From IMG/VR virus record IMGVR_UViG_3300027852_000023, positions 1 to 40,625 of that record: a stretch of DNA of 40,625 nt; one strand, written 5' to 3'. This stretch comes from a virus. Each line of letters starts with the position of its first letter. The stretch's first letter is position 1. Below the pieces are notes generated by a model. It made no database searches. It saw only the letters and a program-made list of their open reading frames with translations, and was not told the origin of the DNA. Positions 4,842 through 26,049 of this stretch are shown here, piece by piece. Both the position numbers and the translations under genes were made by a program.

Positions 4842-6218
4842 CTACACCTCCAGTTTTTCTTTCTCTGCTTCATCAACAATTCTATTTTTCTGTTTCCTCA
4901 AATGCGTTTCCATTTTCTTCATTATTTCGTTCTCGTCCTCCGTTCTATCGCCTTCGCCAAGCAGTTTCTTTTCGATAACATCAATAACTGCTTTAGTTGC
5001 GCCTTCCTCAAGCACTGGTACATCAAACTGATTTAGCGTCCTGATAAGTACGTCCCCGCCCCGTAATCGTGGCAAGTTTATCCCTGTTCTGAATTCATTG
5101 ACTGTGATACCGCCACCTCTCAACGCTTCCAAATATCTTGTCCATAACTTCTCAGCTTCTTCCTGATAAGCAGCAACTTTTGAGAAGTCCCACTTACAAT
5201 AGATATTATCCCCGAAGTCAGGTACAAGGCTTGCGTTAATCGTATCATCATAATGCTGGAACATTGCTGAGAGTGTGTCCTGCCACCATGCCTTACGTGC
5301 TTCGGCATAATTAGAGTAGGTGCTTCGCTTTAATCCTACTGCTGCACCGACCAATATGGGCGGTACATCCATCACCATACAAATTCGTGCTTCGTTCCTC
5401 TCGTCCAGTGTTTCAAATCCCATCTCTGAGAATGATAGTCCTGTTTTCTGATATTCAGCATCAGCATCCAAGACTGCAGGATCCACCCAGTTCTCAAATC
5501 CGCCATATCGCTTGCGCCATCTCTTACGAATAGCTGTAACTTGCGCTTCTTGTAAATGTTGTTTGGTTTTCAGGATACCCGGCGGAATACCACCACGCTC
5601 CCAGAACATCTTGATAAAGTCAGTAGATGAGTTATCCACATCTCCAACCCTTGCCGCTACTGCTGCAGGAGGCCAGCCCTGATATAAATTCAATGGATCG
5701 AAGTTCTTGAATACCAGCACATCTTCTTTTAGTAGTGGTATCTTTATACCAGAGCCTGGAATCTCATACTCGTAATAGGCTATAAATTCACTGGATGATT
5801 TTACTGGTCTAATCCAATCCGGTCTTAGTGGCCACAACCCAACTACCCGACCAGCTGCACTTCTTTCCTTCTCCCAATATGCCGTACCAGATAAGTCCTC
5901 ATAAATCACGTTAGCAGACCAGAAGTCATACTCAGCCATTTCGCTATTTGGCTTCTGGATGAGCTGCCTTAGTGGGTGATCAGGAATCTCTTGCTCCGTT
6001 CTCTTATCGTAAACACGTAAAGCCACCTGACTTGCTGAATTAGCTGTCTTTGATATACACGCGAATATAAGTTCATTCTTACGGTATCCCTGCTTTGCCA
6101 GCGTCTCAAAACTTACCTCTGGATATGACGGCCTTCCCTCGTCCCATCCGCTTACTCTTGTTGCTGTTAGTGCCTTCTCTCCCCCGAATAAAATTGATAA
6201 CCTGTCCCATAAATTCAT
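4842..6218 (-). CDS. Portal protein, HK97 family
   Basis: 458 residues, AGGAG before ATG 6218. RKNELIFACISKTANSAS and PDHPLRQLIQKPN in the N-terminal part, then WPLRPDWIRPV, VLVFKNFDPL and GGIPPGILKTK, match the HK97-type portal (Phage_portal). It would form the dodecameric DNA channel at one capsid vertex and the docking site for terminase. The C-terminus is charged and coiled (MKKMETHLRKQKNRI). It follows terminase and precedes the morphogenesis protein, the usual order. Confidence 0.95.
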   Translation of the reverse strand: MNLWDRLSILFGGEKALTATRVSGWDEGRPSYPEVSFETLAKQGYRKNELIFACISKTANSASQVALRVYDKRTEQEIPDHPLRQLIQKPNSEMAEYDFWSANVIYEDLSGTAYWEKERSAAGRVVGLWPLRPDWIRPVKSSSEFIAYYEYEIPGSGIKIPLLKEDVLVFKNFDPLNLYQGWPPAAVAARVGDVDNSSTDFIKMFWERGGIPPGILKTKQHLQEAQVTAIRKRWRKRYGGFENWVDPAVLDADAEYQKTGLSFSEMGFETLDERNEARICMVMDVPPILVGAAVGLKRSTYSNYAEARKAWWQDTLSAMFQHYDDTINASLVPDFGDNIYCKWDFSKVAAYQEEAEKLWTRYLEALRGGGITVNEFRTGINLPRLRGGDVLIRTLNQFDVPVLEEGATKAVIDVIEKKLLGEGDRTEDENEIMKKMETHLRKQKNRIVDEAEKEKLEV

Positions 6219-19624: not shown

Positions 19625-19777
19625 CTATTTATTTCTAAAACACTTTTCACAAATGTAGAATGTTTTGTGGCTTGTCATCCCGTATTGAAAATATCCCGCA
19701 CCCTTTTTTATTTCTTCTCCACATCTCCCACACTTGCATTTTCTTTTGTTAGCCGTTTCTGAAACCTTGTTTTTCAT
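19625..19777 (-). CDS. First early gene: 50-residue zinc-ribbon protein
   Basis: MKNKVSETANKRKCKCGRCG with a second pair ICEKC near the C-terminus (four or more cysteines). ATG 19777 lies about 15 bases downstream of the predicted transcript start, with GAGGAAA upstream. As the first product of the strongest early promoter it is a candidate host-takeover factor. Confidence 0.65.
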   Translation of the reverse strand: MKNKVSETANKRKCKCGRCGEEIKKGAGYFQYGMTSHKTFYICEKCFRNK

Positions 19778-19786
19778 TTGTTGTTT

Positions 19787-19819
19787 CCTCTATATACAGT
19801 ATATACGATTATATAGAGG
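19787..19819. promoter_or_regulatory. Palindromic operator over the early promoter
   Basis: CCTCTATATA (19787-19796) and TATATAGAGG (19810-19819) are perfect 10-bp inverted arms. A nested palindrome TATATAC-A-GTATATA occupies 19791-19805. Together they cover the -10 and most of the spacer of the early promoter, so a bound dimer would block it. Confidence 0.7.
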
Positions 19820-19826
19820 TTGTCAA
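19798..19826 (-). promoter_or_regulatory. Strong early promoter (TTGACA-N17-TATACT)
   Basis: On the minus strand TTGACA (19826-19821), 17 bases, TATACT (19803-19798). It is the closest to consensus in the window and faces the early operon beginning at 19777. Confidence 0.82.
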
Positions 19827-19859
19827 GTACCTTTAGACTTTTTAAGGTAAGCGTAGGGT

Positions 19860-19888
19860 ATTACATTTCTCTGATGATGTGCTATAAT
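19860..19888 (+). promoter_or_regulatory. Possible plus-strand promoter
   Basis: ATTACA (19860-19865), 17 bases, TATAAT (19883-19888) preceded by TGC (extended -10). It would give an RNA from about 19895, antisense to the end of the structured-RNA region and with several hairpins, but no credible plus-strand gene follows. Confidence 0.4.
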
Positions 19889-19924
19889 GTAACTGGTGCA
19901 GGACAATCGTCTTGTGCCCCTCCT

Positions 19925-19952
19925 GAGCCGGTGTCCTTTCATTCGCCGGCTC
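19925..19952. other. GAGCCGG/CCGGCTC hairpin
   Basis: Seven-base perfect inverted arms (19925-19931 and 19946-19952) around a 14-base loop. On the plus strand the stem is followed by TTCC and then A/T-rich sequence. It could end the plus-strand transcript or form part of it. Confidence 0.5.
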
Positions 19953-19960
19953 TTCCAATT

Positions 19961-19986
19961 AAAATAAAGAAGCCCATAAGGGCTTC
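19961..19986 (-). terminator. Rho-independent terminator of structured RNA 1
   Basis: Minus strand GAAGCCC-TTAT-GGGCTTC then TTTATTTT: seven pairs, four-base loop, U-rich tail. Confidence 0.85.
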
Positions 19987-20130
19987 CAATCTACTCCTAC
20001 GCGTAGCAGGTGAGACTAAAGCATGGCGTTCAGGTCGCTCTGTGTATCTGCGCAGGTCATAATTCCACTGTTATGCCTCTTTGACAGAAATCAAGCACTG
20101 ATTGCGGACAGCCCTCAATGCGCCATGCTT
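19961..20130 (-). ncRNA. Structured RNA 1 (about 170 nt) with own promoter and terminator
   Basis: The predicted start (about 20130) is the first base of a 10-bp closing stem: AAGCAUGGCG (20130-20121) pairs with CGCCAUGCUU (20028-20019). Between the arms lie further helices CAUUGA/UCAGUG, UUGA/UCAA, CAUAA/UUAUG and CGC/GCG, giving a multi-branched shape. It ends in a rho-independent terminator. There is no open reading frame of note. It is not tRNA- or tmRNA-like and I recognise no Rfam family. A regulatory or virion-related RNA is possible. Confidence 0.6.
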
Positions 20131-20136
20131 GAATAT

Positions 20137-20145
20137 ATTATACCA
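20137..20145 (-). promoter_or_regulatory. Extended -10 promoter for structured RNA 1
   Basis: TGG-TATAAT on the minus strand, within an 11-base core ATGGTATAATA that is also present at 20338-20328 and 20509-20499. The -35 is weak. The expected start coincides with the RNA 1 closing stem. Confidence 0.65.
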
Positions 20146-20152
20146 TAGCAGA

Positions 20153-20322
20153 ACACCGCCTTGTGATATAGGATGCTCGTAAGTATCTCACGGCATGAAG
20201 CCGAATTTTGTCACATGAGGCGGTGTAATAAACAGGTCCCGGACTTCATACCTTTCGGTGATTGCGTGTTTCAGCAACTAGTTCTCTTTCGAGTCCATAA
20301 AGCACTCCGCGCATACCTGCTA
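20153..20322 (-). ncRNA. Structured RNA 2 (about 170 nt)
   Basis: Transcription from the extended -10 at 20337-20329 should begin near 20322, at the arm AGCAGGU (20321-20315), which pairs with ACCUGUU (20237-20231). Inside are GGACU/AGUCC, UUGC/GCAA and ACC-GAAA-GGU, a GNRA-capped hairpin. A second domain is closed by a 14-pair stem with a 2-base bulge (20226-20211 with 20166-20153) enclosing CGGC-UUCAU-GCCG. No clear U-run follows, so the 3' end is uncertain and read-through into RNA 1 is possible. Confidence 0.52.
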
Positions 20323-20328
20323 ATTTAT

Positions 20329-20337
20329 ATTATACCA
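20329..20337 (-). promoter_or_regulatory. Extended -10 promoter for structured RNA 2
   Basis: TGG-TATAAT on the minus strand, with TTGTGG 18 bases upstream as a partial -35. Confidence 0.6.
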
Positions 20338-20371
20338 TACAATTTCCATGGACCACAAATTACATGACTAA

Positions 20372-20427
20372 CCCCTATATGTAGTGCAAAAGGTATAAAA
20401 ACATGCATAAAACCCTGTATATAGGGG
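20372..20427. promoter_or_regulatory. Inverted operator-like pair CCCCTATAT / ATATAGGGG
   Basis: CCCCTATAT (20372-20380) and ATATAGGGG (20419-20427) are perfect inverted 9-mers 38 bases apart; the right one extends to CCCTATATACAG on the minus strand. This matches CCTCTATATACAG at 19787-19799 in 11 of 12 aligned positions, so both are probably bound by the same regulator. Confidence 0.55.
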
Positions 20428-20439
20428 TGTTTAATAGGT

Positions 20440-20493
20440 CCCAAAGCAAAACACCGCTGAAGCGGTGCTTGCCCTTTTGCAGGCGCCTAATAA
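20440..20493 (-). ncRNA. Short hairpin RNA 3 candidate
   Basis: Downstream of the extended -10 at 20508-20500. GCAAAA (20480-20475) can pair with UUUUGC (20451-20446) around the stem CACCGC-UUCA-GCGGUG, which is followed by UUUUGCUUU. It may be a short terminated transcript of about 50 nt or only a terminator protecting the RNA region. Confidence 0.4.
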
Positions 20494-20499
20494 CAACTT

Positions 20500-20508
20500 A
20501 TTATACCA
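20500..20508 (-). promoter_or_regulatory. Extended -10 promoter, third copy
   Basis: TGG-TATAAT on the minus strand, within the same ATGGTATAATA core; -35 is weak (TTATTA at 17 bases). Confidence 0.55.
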
Positions 20509-20509
20509 T

Positions 20510-20792
20510 TAACCACATTAGTTAATAATCGACTCACCATGCTGGTTTACGTCCGTTAAACCGCCGATAACATAGCCGATAAAATGATAATAACTTTTGT
20601 AGTATTTTTATTTGCGGTGTATTGTGAAAATAAGGACTGCGATAATTACTTCTGGGCTAATTTGCGCAGTTTGTTTTGTATATCGTTATTAATGCGTATG
20701 GGTTAATAGGCAGAGTATTACCAGTTAAGTGCTATTTATGCGTCTAACGGGTAACATATTACCTATTCAGATGTTCGGTGTTTGCGTACAGC
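20510..20792. other. Gene-free A/T-rich stretch
   Basis: No credible reading frame on either strand. It holds a palindrome GGTAACATATTACC (20750-20763), a direct repeat CCGATAA (20564-20570 and 20576-20582) and a TTAAC..GTTAA inverted pair near 20510-20526. It could contain replication or packaging sites, but nothing decides this. Confidence 0.5.
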
Positions 20793-20990
20793 TCAAATCT
20801 CCCGGCAGAAGAAGTCCTGCACCGTGTACCATAGACAGTCAAGCCAATCAGGTATCCAGGTGGGGATTTCATTCACGATCACCGACACATCAAGCTCCTG
20901 ATCCCACCATTCTTGCAAGAACTCTGGCTCGCTATCGAAGTTGAAGTAGAACGGCTTTGTTCTACCCTGAACAAGTATCTGCATTTTCAT
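20793..20990 (-). CDS. Small acidic protein at the end of the late transcript
   Basis: 65 residues (MKMQILVQGRTKPFYFNFDS, then WIPDWLDCLWYTVQDFF). GGAG lies 12 bases before the ATG. Tryptophan-rich and acidic; last gene before the structured-RNA region. No family recognised. Confidence 0.58.
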   Translation of the reverse strand: MKMQILVQGRTKPFYFNFDSEPEFLQEWWDQELDVSVIVNEIPTWIPDWLDCLWYTVQDFFCREI

Positions 20991-20998
20991 AAACCGAT

Positions 20999-21523
20999 TT
21001 ACTCCACTTCCTCAACGGTTACGATAGCAGTTATTTTGTACTTACCTACTCCAAAAACTACGGGAGGATCTTCTGGGGGATCTCCGGGATTGACTGGGGG
21101 AATTACTGGCGGCGCGCCAGGAACATAGTCTCTTAGTTCGTGTGCGAAATATGCTTCAAACTGCGATTTCGTTCCGTTAAAATAAACATCCCTGTTCGCT
21201 CGTTCCCACAGAACCCAAGGGTTTCCACCGCTATCAGACCAATCCGGCAGAACGCCGCTGGGGTGTTCCTCGTTGTATGGGTCAAACACAAACAAATCGA
21301 CATGCGCTGGGATATTATCGGTAAGCCCAGACGGGTCGTGTACTGGACTCTTCCACGGCTTGTCCCAACCCGGAACAGCCGCTCCTGGAATGTGAACAAC
21401 GGGCGCATATCCTAATTCTCTCCACTTATCCCCAAACGCCATTATTTCATCGAGCGATTTAGAACAATTTATTACCCTAAAATTCGCTTTTACCCAACCT
21501 AATCCACCTAAAATTTTATACAT
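20999..21523 (-). CDS. Hypothetical protein with proline-rich linker
   Basis: 174 residues, AAGGAG before ATG 21523, after a terminator hairpin. The N-terminal part (MYKILGGLGWVKANFRVINC) continues to a Trp/Gly/Asp-rich middle (FVFDPYNEEHPSG), then a Pro linker (VPGAPPVIPPVNPGDPPEDP) and a short strand-rich end. The linker suggests two domains in an extracellular or virion protein. No signal peptide. Confidence 0.6.
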   Translation of the reverse strand: MYKILGGLGWVKANFRVINCSKSLDEIMAFGDKWRELGYAPVVHIPGAAVPGWDKPWKSPVHDPSGLTDNIPAHVDLFVFDPYNEEHPSGVLPDWSDSGGNPWVLWERANRDVYFNGTKSQFEAYFAHELRDYVPGAPPVIPPVNPGDPPEDPPVVFGVGKYKITAIVTVEEVE

Positions 21524-22012: not shown

Positions 22013-22995
22013 CAGAACTCCAATCTCATCTGCTGTTGTGCGTCTTTTACTCTCTTCACAGCAATATCAAAGTATTTCTTCTCTATTTCAATTCCGATAA
22101 ACTTACGCCCTGTCTGAACACAAGCTACGCCTGTTGTGCCTGAACCCATGAATAAATCTAAAATTAAATCACCCTCATTAGAACTATGCTTAATAATATT
22201 TTCAATCAATGGTTCTGGCTTCGGTGTAATGTGTCCGTTTTTCTTTGCAATCTCATAATTCCAAACGCTGTGGTGTGTTTTCTGGTTATTGAACGTGTAG
22301 CGCAAGTCCTCATATTCTCGGCGCAAGTCCTCATATTCTCGGCGCACGAACTCATTATTTATTGGCAAAGTTGCCAACTCGTTATATGTTTCTTCTGTTG
22401 GCATATCCCATTGGCTTGATCCCCACCTGAAACAGTGGTCTACCTGTTGTCCTAACAAATCCATTATCTGTTTCTTGTTCATCCCCAACGCTTTTTGATA
22501 ATCCTTGAAATACTGACGCAAGGTTGTAAAATTATTCATATCAAGTTTTACGGTTGTCAATCCAGTTTCATCTTGAAATGTATAAAACAAGCAATATTCA
22601 GCCATTTGCTGATAGTTACGCAATCCTTCGGGGACAATAAACCCATCCAGAAAACCCTTGTTGCTCGCCTCGTCAAACCGCTTATTCCACACAATAAACT
22701 GCTTGAATATAAATTGCGTGTTCTCTCTAATCCATAGCATCAAATCGGCTATTGTTTCCATGTCATTGTGGAAGAAATAAAAAGAACCGTTATCCGCTAA
22801 CACCCTTTGACATTCCAACAACCACTTACCGCACCATTCAATATAATTCGGTATCTTGTCCCAATCGGCTTTTCCTATGTTATAAGGCGGGTCAGTGCAA
22901 ATTAGATTGATACTTTTATTAGGCAAATCTTTCATAACAGTTAAACAATCCCCGTGATATAAGGTGCAGTCGCCCAATACTACTTTATTCATCAT
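22012..22995 (-). CDS. DNA methyltransferase, class beta (DPPY, probable N6-adenine)
   Basis: 327 residues. Motif IV TDPPYNIGKADWD (Asp35-Pro-Pro-Tyr38) precedes motif I DLFMGSGTTG near residue 280, so beta class; DPPY suggests N6-adenine. The target-recognition region between them holds a tandem REYEDLR duplication. Two ATGs (22995 and 22992) follow CAGGTGG. No partner nuclease is present, so host-restriction evasion or regulation of phage DNA is the likely role. It is distinct from the SPPY enzyme at 12526-13587. Confidence 0.9.
   Translation of the reverse strand: MMNKVVLGDCTLYHGDCLTVMKDLPNKSINLICTDPPYNIGKADWDKIPNYIEWCGKWLLECQRVLADNGSFYFFHNDMETIADLMLWIRENTQFIFKQFIVWNKRFDEASNKGFLDGFIVPEGLRNYQQMAEYCLFYTFQDETGLTTVKLDMNNFTTLRQYFKDYQKALGMNKKQIMDLLGQQVDHCFRWGSSQWDMPTEETYNELATLPINNEFVRREYEDLRREYEDLRYTFNNQKTHHSVWNYEIAKKNGHITPKPEPLIENIIKHSSNEGDLILDLFMGSGTTGVACVQTGRKFIGIEIEKKYFDIAVKRVKDAQQQMRLEF
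22301..22342. repeat. 21-bp tandem duplication in the DPPY methyltransferase gene
   Basis: 22301-22321 is repeated exactly at 22322-22342. It is in frame and adds one REYEDLR unit to the predicted target-recognition region. Confidence 0.95.
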
Positions 22996-23849
22996 ACCAC
23001 CTGCGTTTCATCTTGTGCATACGAGTTCTTAATTGTCTTATGCCAGCACCGCCCATCTTCTTCAATGACAATAACCACCATGCCAATATCAGATAATTGA
23101 GAGCCAGCTACGCGATATGCGTATCCCGTCTTGAATTGGAATGATGGCGTAACAAATCCCTCTATCTCCCCACGCTTACCCTTGTATTGCCCGTAGGCAT
23201 ATTTATGTAAGTGCGATCTGATAAAATATCTCGGTAGTTTAGTTTCATCTTCAAGGTGCTGAAAATATAAAGATTTGACGAGGTTGTGCATTCCGTTATT
23301 TGTAGTCCATGCCCTGCGTCCTACTGATCCGCCGTGATGTGCTATGTCAAATAGTATGCCGTTGACCTTTAGAAGTAACCTATCCCATGTATACCTTGCC
23401 TTGTTCTTCGGGACAATCCCCCACTCTTCAATATCCCGCGCTATGTTCTCTTCAGCCCGTGAACCTACTCCACCATGACTTTCTGTGCCCGCCATGATAT
23501 AAGCGAGATCGCCTTTATCCTTGTTGAATTTCAGATAATTGAAAGTGTGCTCAAGAATATCAACCGCTATCTGTTCGTGCTCGTCTGTCCTTGAGGTAGT
23601 TATCTGTGTTGTGCCGTGATGGATACCCTCTGTACAATCCCCGTTCTCAATCCAAATTAGCCTCGACCTCTTGCGCTCTTCCTTAATAAAAAACAGGCAC
23701 TCCATATACTGTGCCCATATTTTCTTTTGTAGTACACTTGGTAAGTAGGTTCCCCCATCGTGTAATTGCATTGGTTCTGGGCTCATTAAACCCAACGATG
23801 AACCAGAATGCTTGTCCGCTGAAATTGCTATAACGGTTCGCTTTCTCAT
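22992..23849 (-). CDS. Calcineurin-like metallophosphoesterase
   Basis: 285 residues with AAGGAGGA before ATG 23849. Metal-site motifs appear in order: SADKHSG (Asp12, His14), ENGDCTEG (Asp71), GTESH (121-125, in place of GNHE), HHGG (171-174) and SHLH (212-215, in place of GHxH). This is a two-metal phosphoesterase; phage members may act on DNA ends, nucleotides or protein phosphates. Its own promoter is just upstream. Confidence 0.82.
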   Translation of the reverse strand: MRKRTVIAISADKHSGSSLGLMSPEPMQLHDGGTYLPSVLQKKIWAQYMECLFFIKEERKRSRLIWIENGDCTEGIHHGTTQITTSRTDEHEQIAVDILEHTFNYLKFNKDKGDLAYIMAGTESHGGVGSRAEENIARDIEEWGIVPKNKARYTWDRLLLKVNGILFDIAHHGGSVGRRAWTTNNGMHNLVKSLYFQHLEDETKLPRYFIRSHLHKYAYGQYKGKRGEIEGFVTPSFQFKTGYAYRVAGSQLSDIGMVVIVIEEDGRCWHKTIKNSYAQDETQVV

Positions 23850-25296: not shown

Positions 25297-26049
25297 CTAA
25301 ATCTCCCGCACCCTTTTTAGATTGTGTATTTTGTCATAATAACCATTTTTTACATTTCGCACCGTATCTCTACAAACACACGCATATTCAGCCACTTTTG
25401 TTTGTGACAAGTTCTTATTTAATAACCATTGAACTTTCAATACCGTTTCCTTTTTTATAACGTTTGCCTTGCGGATTCTCATAATAACTTCTGCTGTATG
25501 AGTTCTTCCATAAAATGGGTTCTCTTTTCCGCAACGTTTTTCCTTATTTGCTAAAGATATTTTTAGGTTATGTTCAAGAGAACACTTTTTACCTTTGTTT
25601 TTTAAAGATAAGAGCTCTTTCGTTTCTTTTGTATGGTGCTTACCAAAAAAGTGATTATTTTTACCGCTTTGATTAGGCATGCTTTTGCGCCTTTTATCAA
25701 TAGATTCTTGCGAACGCACAACCCCTTTTTGGCTATCCACACATTCTAAACAAATATTATAAAGTAAACTTTTCTTTTTATATCTATCCACAAAAGATTG
25801 TTCATATCTTGTTAATTCAAAAGGCTCGCAATAAACAAGTACTTCAAAAATAAAGTCTTTTCTCCTATGCTTATTGAAAGAATTTTGCAAATAACTGTTT
25901 CTATGTTTATTATTTTTCAGGTTTGCCCAATGATGTCTTTTCCTATCATTCAAATCAATGCTTTGTCCAACATAACAAACCCCAGTTACAATATTTCTGA
26001 TTTGATATATTCCGCAATTCAAGTTATTCGCCACAGAACGTTTATTCAT
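25297..26049 (-). CDS. GIY-YIG homing endonuclease with NUMOD3 repeats and HTH
   Basis: 250 residues. GIYQIRN (13-15) and CYVGQS (26-28) open the nuclease domain, with Arg36/Arg38 and Glu83 as likely active-site residues. NUMOD3-type motifs are KNNHFFGKHHTKETKELLSL and KENPFYGRTHTAEVIMRIRK. The C-terminus is helix-turn-helix (LSQTKVAEYACVCRDTVRNV). The gene is clearly more A/T-rich than its surroundings, a sign of transfer. It is a free-standing homing gene, inserted at codon 31 of a lysozyme gene. Confidence 0.93.
   Translation of the reverse strand: MNKRSVANNLNCGIYQIRNIVTGVCYVGQSIDLNDRKRHHWANLKNNKHRNSYLQNSFNKHRRKDFIFEVLVYCEPFELTRYEQSFVDRYKKKSLLYNICLECVDSQKGVVRSQESIDKRRKSMPNQSGKNNHFFGKHHTKETKELLSLKNKGKKCSLEHNLKISLANKEKRCGKENPFYGRTHTAEVIMRIRKANVIKKETVLKVQWLLNKNLSQTKVAEYACVCRDTVRNVKNGYYDKIHNLKRVREI

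Follow-up and report, generated by a model that had tools for sequence, protein, structure and literature searches.

A phage array of structured RNA genes that includes a diverged relative of the DUF3800-VII RNA family

Two phage-encoded RNAs described previously come closest to the case reported here. Racrs are the lone RNA part of a protein-RNA system, encoded by a phage and situated right behind a promoter (PMC10651486). The pseudo-ToxI of phage PhiTE, which is set against ToxIN, is a phage RNA that resembles the bacterial inhibitory RNA but is not identical to it (PMC5449768). On the bacterial side, DUF3800 proteins have an RNase H fold and accompany some class 2 CRISPR systems as well as ncRNAs (PMC10910872; PMC12669027). 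In the literature within our reach, no function is assigned to the DUF3800 RNA families.

The locus described here is an array of three RNA units in a viral genome record, of which the second, RNA 2, is related to the DUF3800-VII RNAs. Like a Racr, RNA 2 is just the RNA component of such a system, which has a promoter of its own and is not accompanied by the protein genes. It differs from Racrs in that the system concerned is DUF3800 rather than CRISPR-Cas, and in that inhibition by RNA 2 is putative. As with pseudo-ToxI, RNA 2 resembles a bacterial RNA without identity, and duplication is part of the story in both cases. However, RNA 2 is not a short repeat, it belongs to an unrelated RNA family, and the toxicity of its partner is presumptive.

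The array between the lysis and early genes

The window, by which we mean the whole stretch of 40,625 nucleotides that was analysed (IMG/VR record IMGVR_UViG_3300027852_000023), carries the array in a non-coding gap of ~1 kb. Tail and lysis genes lie upstream of the array and small early genes lie downstream, in agreement with the placement between late and early operons proposed by the first-pass annotation. On the minus strand no ORF of at least 50 amino acids is present within 19777-20793, and the flanking minus-strand ORFs end at 20793 and start at 19777. The three units share an orientation towards the early genes. The array is also found on a second IMG/VR contig (L002).

Each unit begins with an exact minus-strand copy of the extended −10 core ATGGTATAATA, and the three copies fall within 374 bp. 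That three identical cores each precede a different folded segment had been claimed from the first reading, and the exact matches at all three sites and the foldable segments behind them bear this out. The cores are spaced 171 and 192 bp apart; the former value agrees with the earlier measurement, whereas the latter replaces its 190 bp. When one mismatch or none is allowed, there are 6 ATGGTATAATA-like sites in the window versus 1.6 expected by shuffling, and six or more were reached in 3 of 100 shuffles. The only exact copies in the window are those of the array. The units comprise the following features.

20499 to 20509, minus strand: extended −10 core ATGGTATAATA of RNA 1 (exact match, one of three copies)
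20430 to 20498, minus strand: RNA 1 body (fold z score −2.0; shares elements with RNA 2)
20493-20486 with 20438-20431, minus strand: RNA 1 closing stem, UUAUUAGG with CCUAUUAA
20467-20452, minus strand: RNA 1 inner hairpin CACCGC-UUCA-GCGGUG with a U-rich tail, which may itself terminate transcription
20328 to 20338, minus strand: extended −10 core ATGGTATAATA of RNA 2 (exact match, directly before stem P1)
20226 to 20323, minus strand: RNA 2 body, related to DUF3800-VII (RF02967, covariance model R1, covariation and invariant nucleotides)
20153 to 20226, minus strand: RNA 2 3ˊ domain with the long-range stem ACACCGCC/GGCGGUGU (fold z score −4.5)
20136 to 20146, minus strand: extended −10 core ATGGTATAATA of RNA 3 (exact match)
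19988 to 20135, minus strand: RNA 3 body (fold z score −2.1)
20130-20121 with 20028-20019, minus strand: RNA 3 closing stem, AAGCAUGGCG with CGCCAUGCUU
19961 to 19987, minus strand: RNA 3 intrinsic terminator, GGAAGCCC-UUAU-GGGCUUCU followed by a U-rich tail (terminator scan)

Fold z scores, computed against dinucleotide shuffles, differ among the units. RNA 2 reaches −3.2 with its 3ˊ domain and −1.9 for the body, and RNA 3 reaches −3.5 with its terminator. RNA 1 has a z score of −0.4 over its 160-nt segment, and the listed value applies to its 69-nt body. The initial statement that folding is far more than random thus applies to the whole segments of RNA 2 and RNA 3, but not to that of RNA 1. 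In the terminator scan, RNA 3 has a listed terminator (19987-19968). The terminator of RNA 1, which had been called textbook, is absent from the scan listing, although by eye CACCGC-UUCA-GCGGUG-UUUUGCUUU is a good one. The 3ˊ domain of RNA 2 is possibly the terminator of that RNA, and in a related phage the RNA at this position also finishes with a stem of this kind (L160:13241-13323). These features support an array of structured RNA genes, each of which follows the same promoter core. The locus is best explained as an accessory RNA island of the phage, built from three promoter-RNA-terminator units.

Several other elements of the window were observed in passing. A minus-strand early promoter (TTGACA...TATACT, 11 of 12 positions, 19798-19826) is overlapped by a CCTCTATATA...TATATAGAGG dyad, which is probably a repressor operator of the early genes. 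On the plus strand, opposite to the array, a twin-hairpin element (19874-19960; fold z score −5.7 in the window) lies behind the extended −10-like sequence TGTGNTANAAT, with CCUCC between its hairpins, the second of which has a UUCAUU loop. Equivalents are found in L161 (plus strand) and L160 (minus strand), such that pairing is kept in three related phages with different stem sequences. The element may represent an additional small RNA or a regulatory site. A gene resembling GIY-YIG-type homing endonucleases is located on the minus strand (25297-26049) between the tail fibre and endolysin genes.

RNA 2 and the DUF3800-VII family

An Rfam search of the window at the gathering threshold returned no match. 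At a permissive threshold, the DUF3800-VII model (RF02967) matched 20226-20321 over its full length with 24.8 bits (gathering threshold 36.2). This match alone proves nothing, because a Brucella sRNA model obtained a similar E-value on RNA 1. Therefore, members of the DUF3800-VII family were gathered independently of RNA 2. A degenerate-pattern search yielded 13 DUF3800-VII RNA loci outside the window, including one on a viral contig (L117, 80.6 bits), ten in bacterial MAGs (75-87 bits), and two on phage-classed contigs (L145 and L146). By record title, the MAGs belong to Calditrichaeota, WOR-3, Chloroflexi (including Anaerolineae and Thermoflexus), Armatimonadota, Deltaproteobacteria, Planctomycetota, and Nitrospirae. 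Two sets of pattern matches were discarded. L105, the best candidate from a first degenerate pattern of promoter plus AUGCGC, is a chance match inside coding sequence, and the two matches in L144 are coding repeats. Among 400 Chloroflexota genomes, searched with strict filters, only the centre genome gave a match, which indicates that the family is sparse.

A covariance model (R1) was built from the 13 loci with RNA 2 left out. When applied to the window, R1 has RNA 2 as its sole match, with 27.1 bits and an E-value of 6.9e-5. Across 0.82 Mb of other loci, many picked for an AUGCGC pattern, unrelated sequence scores 18.1 bits at best. The base of RNA 2 recognized in this manner consists of the following parts.

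20320-20315 with 20237-20232, minus strand: stem P1, GCAGGU/ACCUGU
20314-20309, minus strand: AUGCGC
20309-20306 with 20243-20240, minus strand: stem P2, CGGA/UCCG
20302-20297 with 20249-20244, minus strand: stem P3, CUUUAU/AUGAAG

The order of the basal elements (P1, AUGCGC, P2, GGG, P1ˊ) is the same as in DUF3800-VII, and RNA 2 shares with that family the AUGCGC/GGG internal loop and a length of ~95 nt. A promoter directly before P1 is a further likeness, as a −10-like element is seen by eye to precede P1 in the DUF3800-VII loci also. In the joint alignment of RNA 2 with its 13 relatives, 98.2% of cells pair and 12 of the 25 pairs exhibit double changes. These counts lean towards the model because the alignment was fitted to R1, although sliding the partner by one column cuts pairing to 47%. 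The covariation score of the alignment was reached by none of 500 shuffles.

RNA 2 retains all 16 pairs of P1-P3, and two of these carry double changes that occur in no other member (the pair that ends P2 went from G-C to A-U, and one in P3 from C-G to U-A). In addition, 19 of 22 basal invariants are kept, all of the unpaired ones among them, and none of 20,000 shuffles of the array produced the basal motif in full. The preserved and compensated pairs, together with the invariants, indicate that the base is under selection, and the R1 score and the shuffle count exclude a chance likeness to DUF3800-VII. Compensatory changes in the stems among relatives, whose absence would have spoken against the first-pass annotation, are therefore present for RNA 2. 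Predicted pair probabilities are 0.73-1.0 for P1-P2 and about 0.4-0.5 for P3, where another upper stem competes.

The top of RNA 2 has been remodelled. None of the 12 apical invariants is alignable, the conserved apical GCAG and UGGGAUC motifs are lost, and GAAA-capped hairpins are found instead. By eye, the first arm of DUF3800-VII may survive in part as a GUUGC/GCAAU arm. Thus, from sequence comparison, the relationship is well supported and RNA 2 is a diverged, remodelled DUF3800-VII relative, which revises the earlier opinion that no known family fits. Because its score falls short of the gathering threshold and the apical motifs are missing, RNA 2 should not be filed as a member of DUF3800-VII. 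It also differs from the family in its location within a tandem array and in having no DUF3800 gene. We consider it a relative that may work in the manner of RNA counter-defence.

RNA 1 shares with RNA 2 the promoter core, the GGGACCU strand (74% over 19 nt), and the GCGGTGTTYTGCT element (88% over 17 nt). On the basis of these common parts, RNA 1 is probably a duplicated, reduced tandem paralogue of RNA 2. R1 recognizes neither RNA 1 nor RNA 3, with the RNA 3 match reaching at most 6.3 bits. GGCGC is located exactly 11 nt after the core in RNA 1 and RNA 3, with GGUAUGCGC in RNA 2, which may be chance. At the sensitivity used (Rfam, and BLASTN against phages and plasmids), RNA 1 and RNA 3 have no database homologue, and BLASTN of the array yielded nothing useful. 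Hence, the suggestion that the locus holds a new family no longer applies to RNA 2 and, within these searches, may still hold for RNA 1 and RNA 3. Matches to BSnc120, RT-5, RsaA, and SpF51 fall below gathering and were judged to be chance. For RT-5 (RF03026), RNA 1 exhibits the GCGCCUGC string followed by a hairpin, but its 20.0 bits (E 0.25; gathering threshold 45.7) are no better than the evidently spurious Brucella match in the same table.

The DUF3800 gene in the relatives and in the phage

A convergent DUF3800 gene is located at the 3ˊ end of the RNA in six of the 13 relatives (L124, L130, L138, L143, L145, and L146; the gene of L130 is cut by the locus end). Direct tblastn shows a complete gene in these loci only, and so the gene is not universal in the family. 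This result lowered our confidence that an orphan copy signals a decoy. Only DUF3800 fragments remain on the 3ˊ side of the intact RNA in L132, L137, and L139. By tblastn, the gene was not found beside the RNA in L127, L129, or the phage contig L117, and L126 has only 200 bp present on this side. Intact RNAs that face a truncated, deleted, or absent gene are situated at L127:2254-2341, L129:1874-1962, L132:632-720, L137:2857-2951, and L139:2405-2493. L132 keeps just the two ends of the gene, as do non-autonomous derivatives of mobile elements.

The RNA and the next gene (94.6% identical) are common to L127 and L143, and DUF3800 is present in L143 only, which implies that L127 most likely lost the gene. 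Even so, the RNA of L127 differs from that of L143 by a compensated pair in P2 (G-C to A-U). Intact RNAs beside damaged DUF3800 genes suggest either an inhibitor RNA that outlives its toxic protein or a mobile element. In this family the RNA frequently persists after its protein is gone, as is expected of an inhibitor RNA that loses a toxic partner, with recent decay as the alternative.

Gene loss of this kind raises the question of whether RNA 2 is a functionless relic of a complete DUF3800 pair once carried by the phage. Complete pairs do occur on the phage-like contigs L145 and L146, and RNAs remain intact next to the fragments in L132, L137, and L139 and after the loss in L127 relative to syntenic L143. 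We nevertheless consider a relic unlikely because the pairing of RNA 2 is intact and compensated, although the chromosomal examples demonstrate that loss of the protein need not entail loss of the RNA. Every basal pair is preserved, and the two phage-unique double changes would not be retained in a neutral relic. The near-consensus promoter core, identical in three tandem units, likewise argues against decay.

The 40.6 kb record of the window holds no DUF3800 gene by Pfam or by tblastn with five DUF3800 proteins. Similarly, the phage contig L117 carries a canonical DUF3800-VII RNA and no DUF3800 gene in 24.6 kb. The RNA of that contig (L117:5201-5289) converges on a small zinc-ribbon-like ORF (5326-5712) instead. 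It is highly improbable that RNA 2 is one half of a complete pair, with a DUF3800-like protein that the phage encodes but that the record lacks or that has diverged beyond recognition by Pfam. In favour of this reading, the record is classed as linear, has no end repeats, and may be short of some bases, and its synteny with G020 would allow perhaps one gene in the space between the two ends. However, the gene of the relatives lies directly at the 3ˊ end of the RNA, a position that is occupied here by the 3ˊ domain of RNA 2 itself and by RNA 3, and the searches with Pfam and the five proteins speak against this explanation as well. Orphan DUF3800-VII RNAs are also chromosomal, and therefore orphan status alone is no sign of counter-defence. 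The capsid protein of the phage has relatives in one Chloroflexota genome (54% identity) and in Planctomycetota (up to 45%), and does not discriminate between the two as hosts.

The predicted structure of the L143 DUF3800 protein (pLDDT 74, pTM 0.80) is nearest to RNase HII/H2 (E 3e-4, TM-scores 0.4-0.5), which agrees with the published RNase H fold of DUF3800 (PMC10910872; PMC12669027). The partner is therefore predicted to be an RNase HII-like nuclease. A sequence search with DUF3800 against solved structures gave chance matches only. Instead of inhibiting it, RNA 2 might be a working partner that recruits the putative host enzyme for the phage, or it might serve another phage protein, with the remodelled top providing a new target or function. 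A base that is kept with compensatory changes beneath a top rebuilt into stable hairpins would fit such a role. However, the array has no linked phage protein, the ORFs closest to it lack a confident match to known families, and a guide function of the natural RNA is hypothetical. We regard a working partnership as quite unlikely.

The same site in related phages and a putative counter-defence role

Related phages, found via their capsid protein (77-78% identical), carry RNA units in the syntenic gap between lysis and early genes. In the first relative, the unit (L160:13198-13335) includes a TAGTATAAT element and an ACACCGC/GCGGUGU stem like that at the end of RNA 2, and ATGGTATAATA also precedes a terminator-ended segment elsewhere in this phage. 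The second relative (L161) has an RNA unit of about 70 nt in the gap, and ATGGTATAATG precedes a foldable segment in that phage. The latter segment (minus strand, about 640-540; also in L172) has a UGUCAGG/CCUGACA closing stem, and ahead of a U-run a AGCACUGAUUAG/CUAAUCAGUGCU pairing overlaps with it, perhaps as a pseudoknot or switch. The RNAs of the related phages have no confident Rfam family match and no R1 match. Because different RNA units are present at the same site, the site is a variable RNA locus in this phage group. Among the viral contigs searched, the proteins encoded at 20999-21523 and 22992-23849 have no relatives, and a search with the 75-aa early protein returned already-known loci only.

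Different promoter-RNA-terminator units in L160 and L161, at the same site and beside the conserved twin-hairpin element, would also be expected of ordinary phage regulatory RNAs, such as antisense RNAs, leaders, or attenuators of early genes, to whose role the likeness to DUF3800-VII is incidental. The orientation of all three units towards the early genes is consistent with this possibility. However, RNA 3 is closed by a terminator, the early genes have a TTGACA...TATACT promoter of their own, and the R1 score and shuffle count exclude that the likeness of RNA 2 arose by chance. We therefore regard ordinary regulation as improbable.

The explanation that we put forward, as a tentative proposal with a probability somewhat below even, is that RNA 2, and perhaps RNA 1, occupies a putative host DUF3800 protein via the conserved base and acts as a surrogate inhibitor or a decoy. 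RNA 2 descends from the DUF3800-VII family, in which the bacterial RNA is often encoded against a convergent DUF3800 gene. The phage retains the basal module (P1, AUGCGC, P2, GGG, P1ˊ) beneath a remodelled top, with the DUF3800 gene absent. Phage-made RNA might then occupy the host protein, such that the DUF3800-RNA pair of the host could not act against infection. This might occur by either of two modes. RNA 2 could be a surrogate inhibitory RNA, as the phage pseudo-ToxI is for ToxN, or it could be a non-productive decoy, as Racrs are for Cas proteins. We slightly favour the surrogate inhibitor, since truncation or loss of DUF3800 in the relatives often leaves the RNA intact.

The analysis demonstrates the relationship in sequence, structure, and covariation, the conserved base, the altered top, the position of the promoter, and the absence of the partner gene. 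From these we infer binding of the DUF3800 protein to the base, toxicity or a defensive role of DUF3800-VII pairs, and their inhibition by the phage RNA. The loss of the apical invariants means that protein binding by RNA 2 is not assured. The defence context of some relatives was counted in favour of the proposal. Specifically, in L139 (457-6604) the hsdM and hsdS genes of a type I restriction operon are separated by an insertion of the RNA and a short remnant of DUF3800, the L138 DUF3800-RNA pair adjoins a ResIII protein, and the L124 DUF3800 protein matches the PADLOC candidate PDC-M04A. A broader version, which is rather unlikely, holds that DUF3800-RNA pairs are antiviral and that the array consists of three counter-defence RNA genes, with RNA 1 and RNA 2 directed against DUF3800 and RNA 3 against another undescribed protein-RNA system. 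Related phages would, in that event, exchange RNA units at the same site.

A phage RNA that keeps the base of a family and remodels its top, without the protein, offers a direct handle on the DUF3800 RNA families. The site also provides one genomic position in a phage group where more such RNA genes can be sought. If RNA 2 indeed binds and disarms a host DUF3800 protein, this would mean that DUF3800-RNA pairs act against phages, and RNA counter-defence would extend past CRISPR and type III toxin-antitoxin systems.
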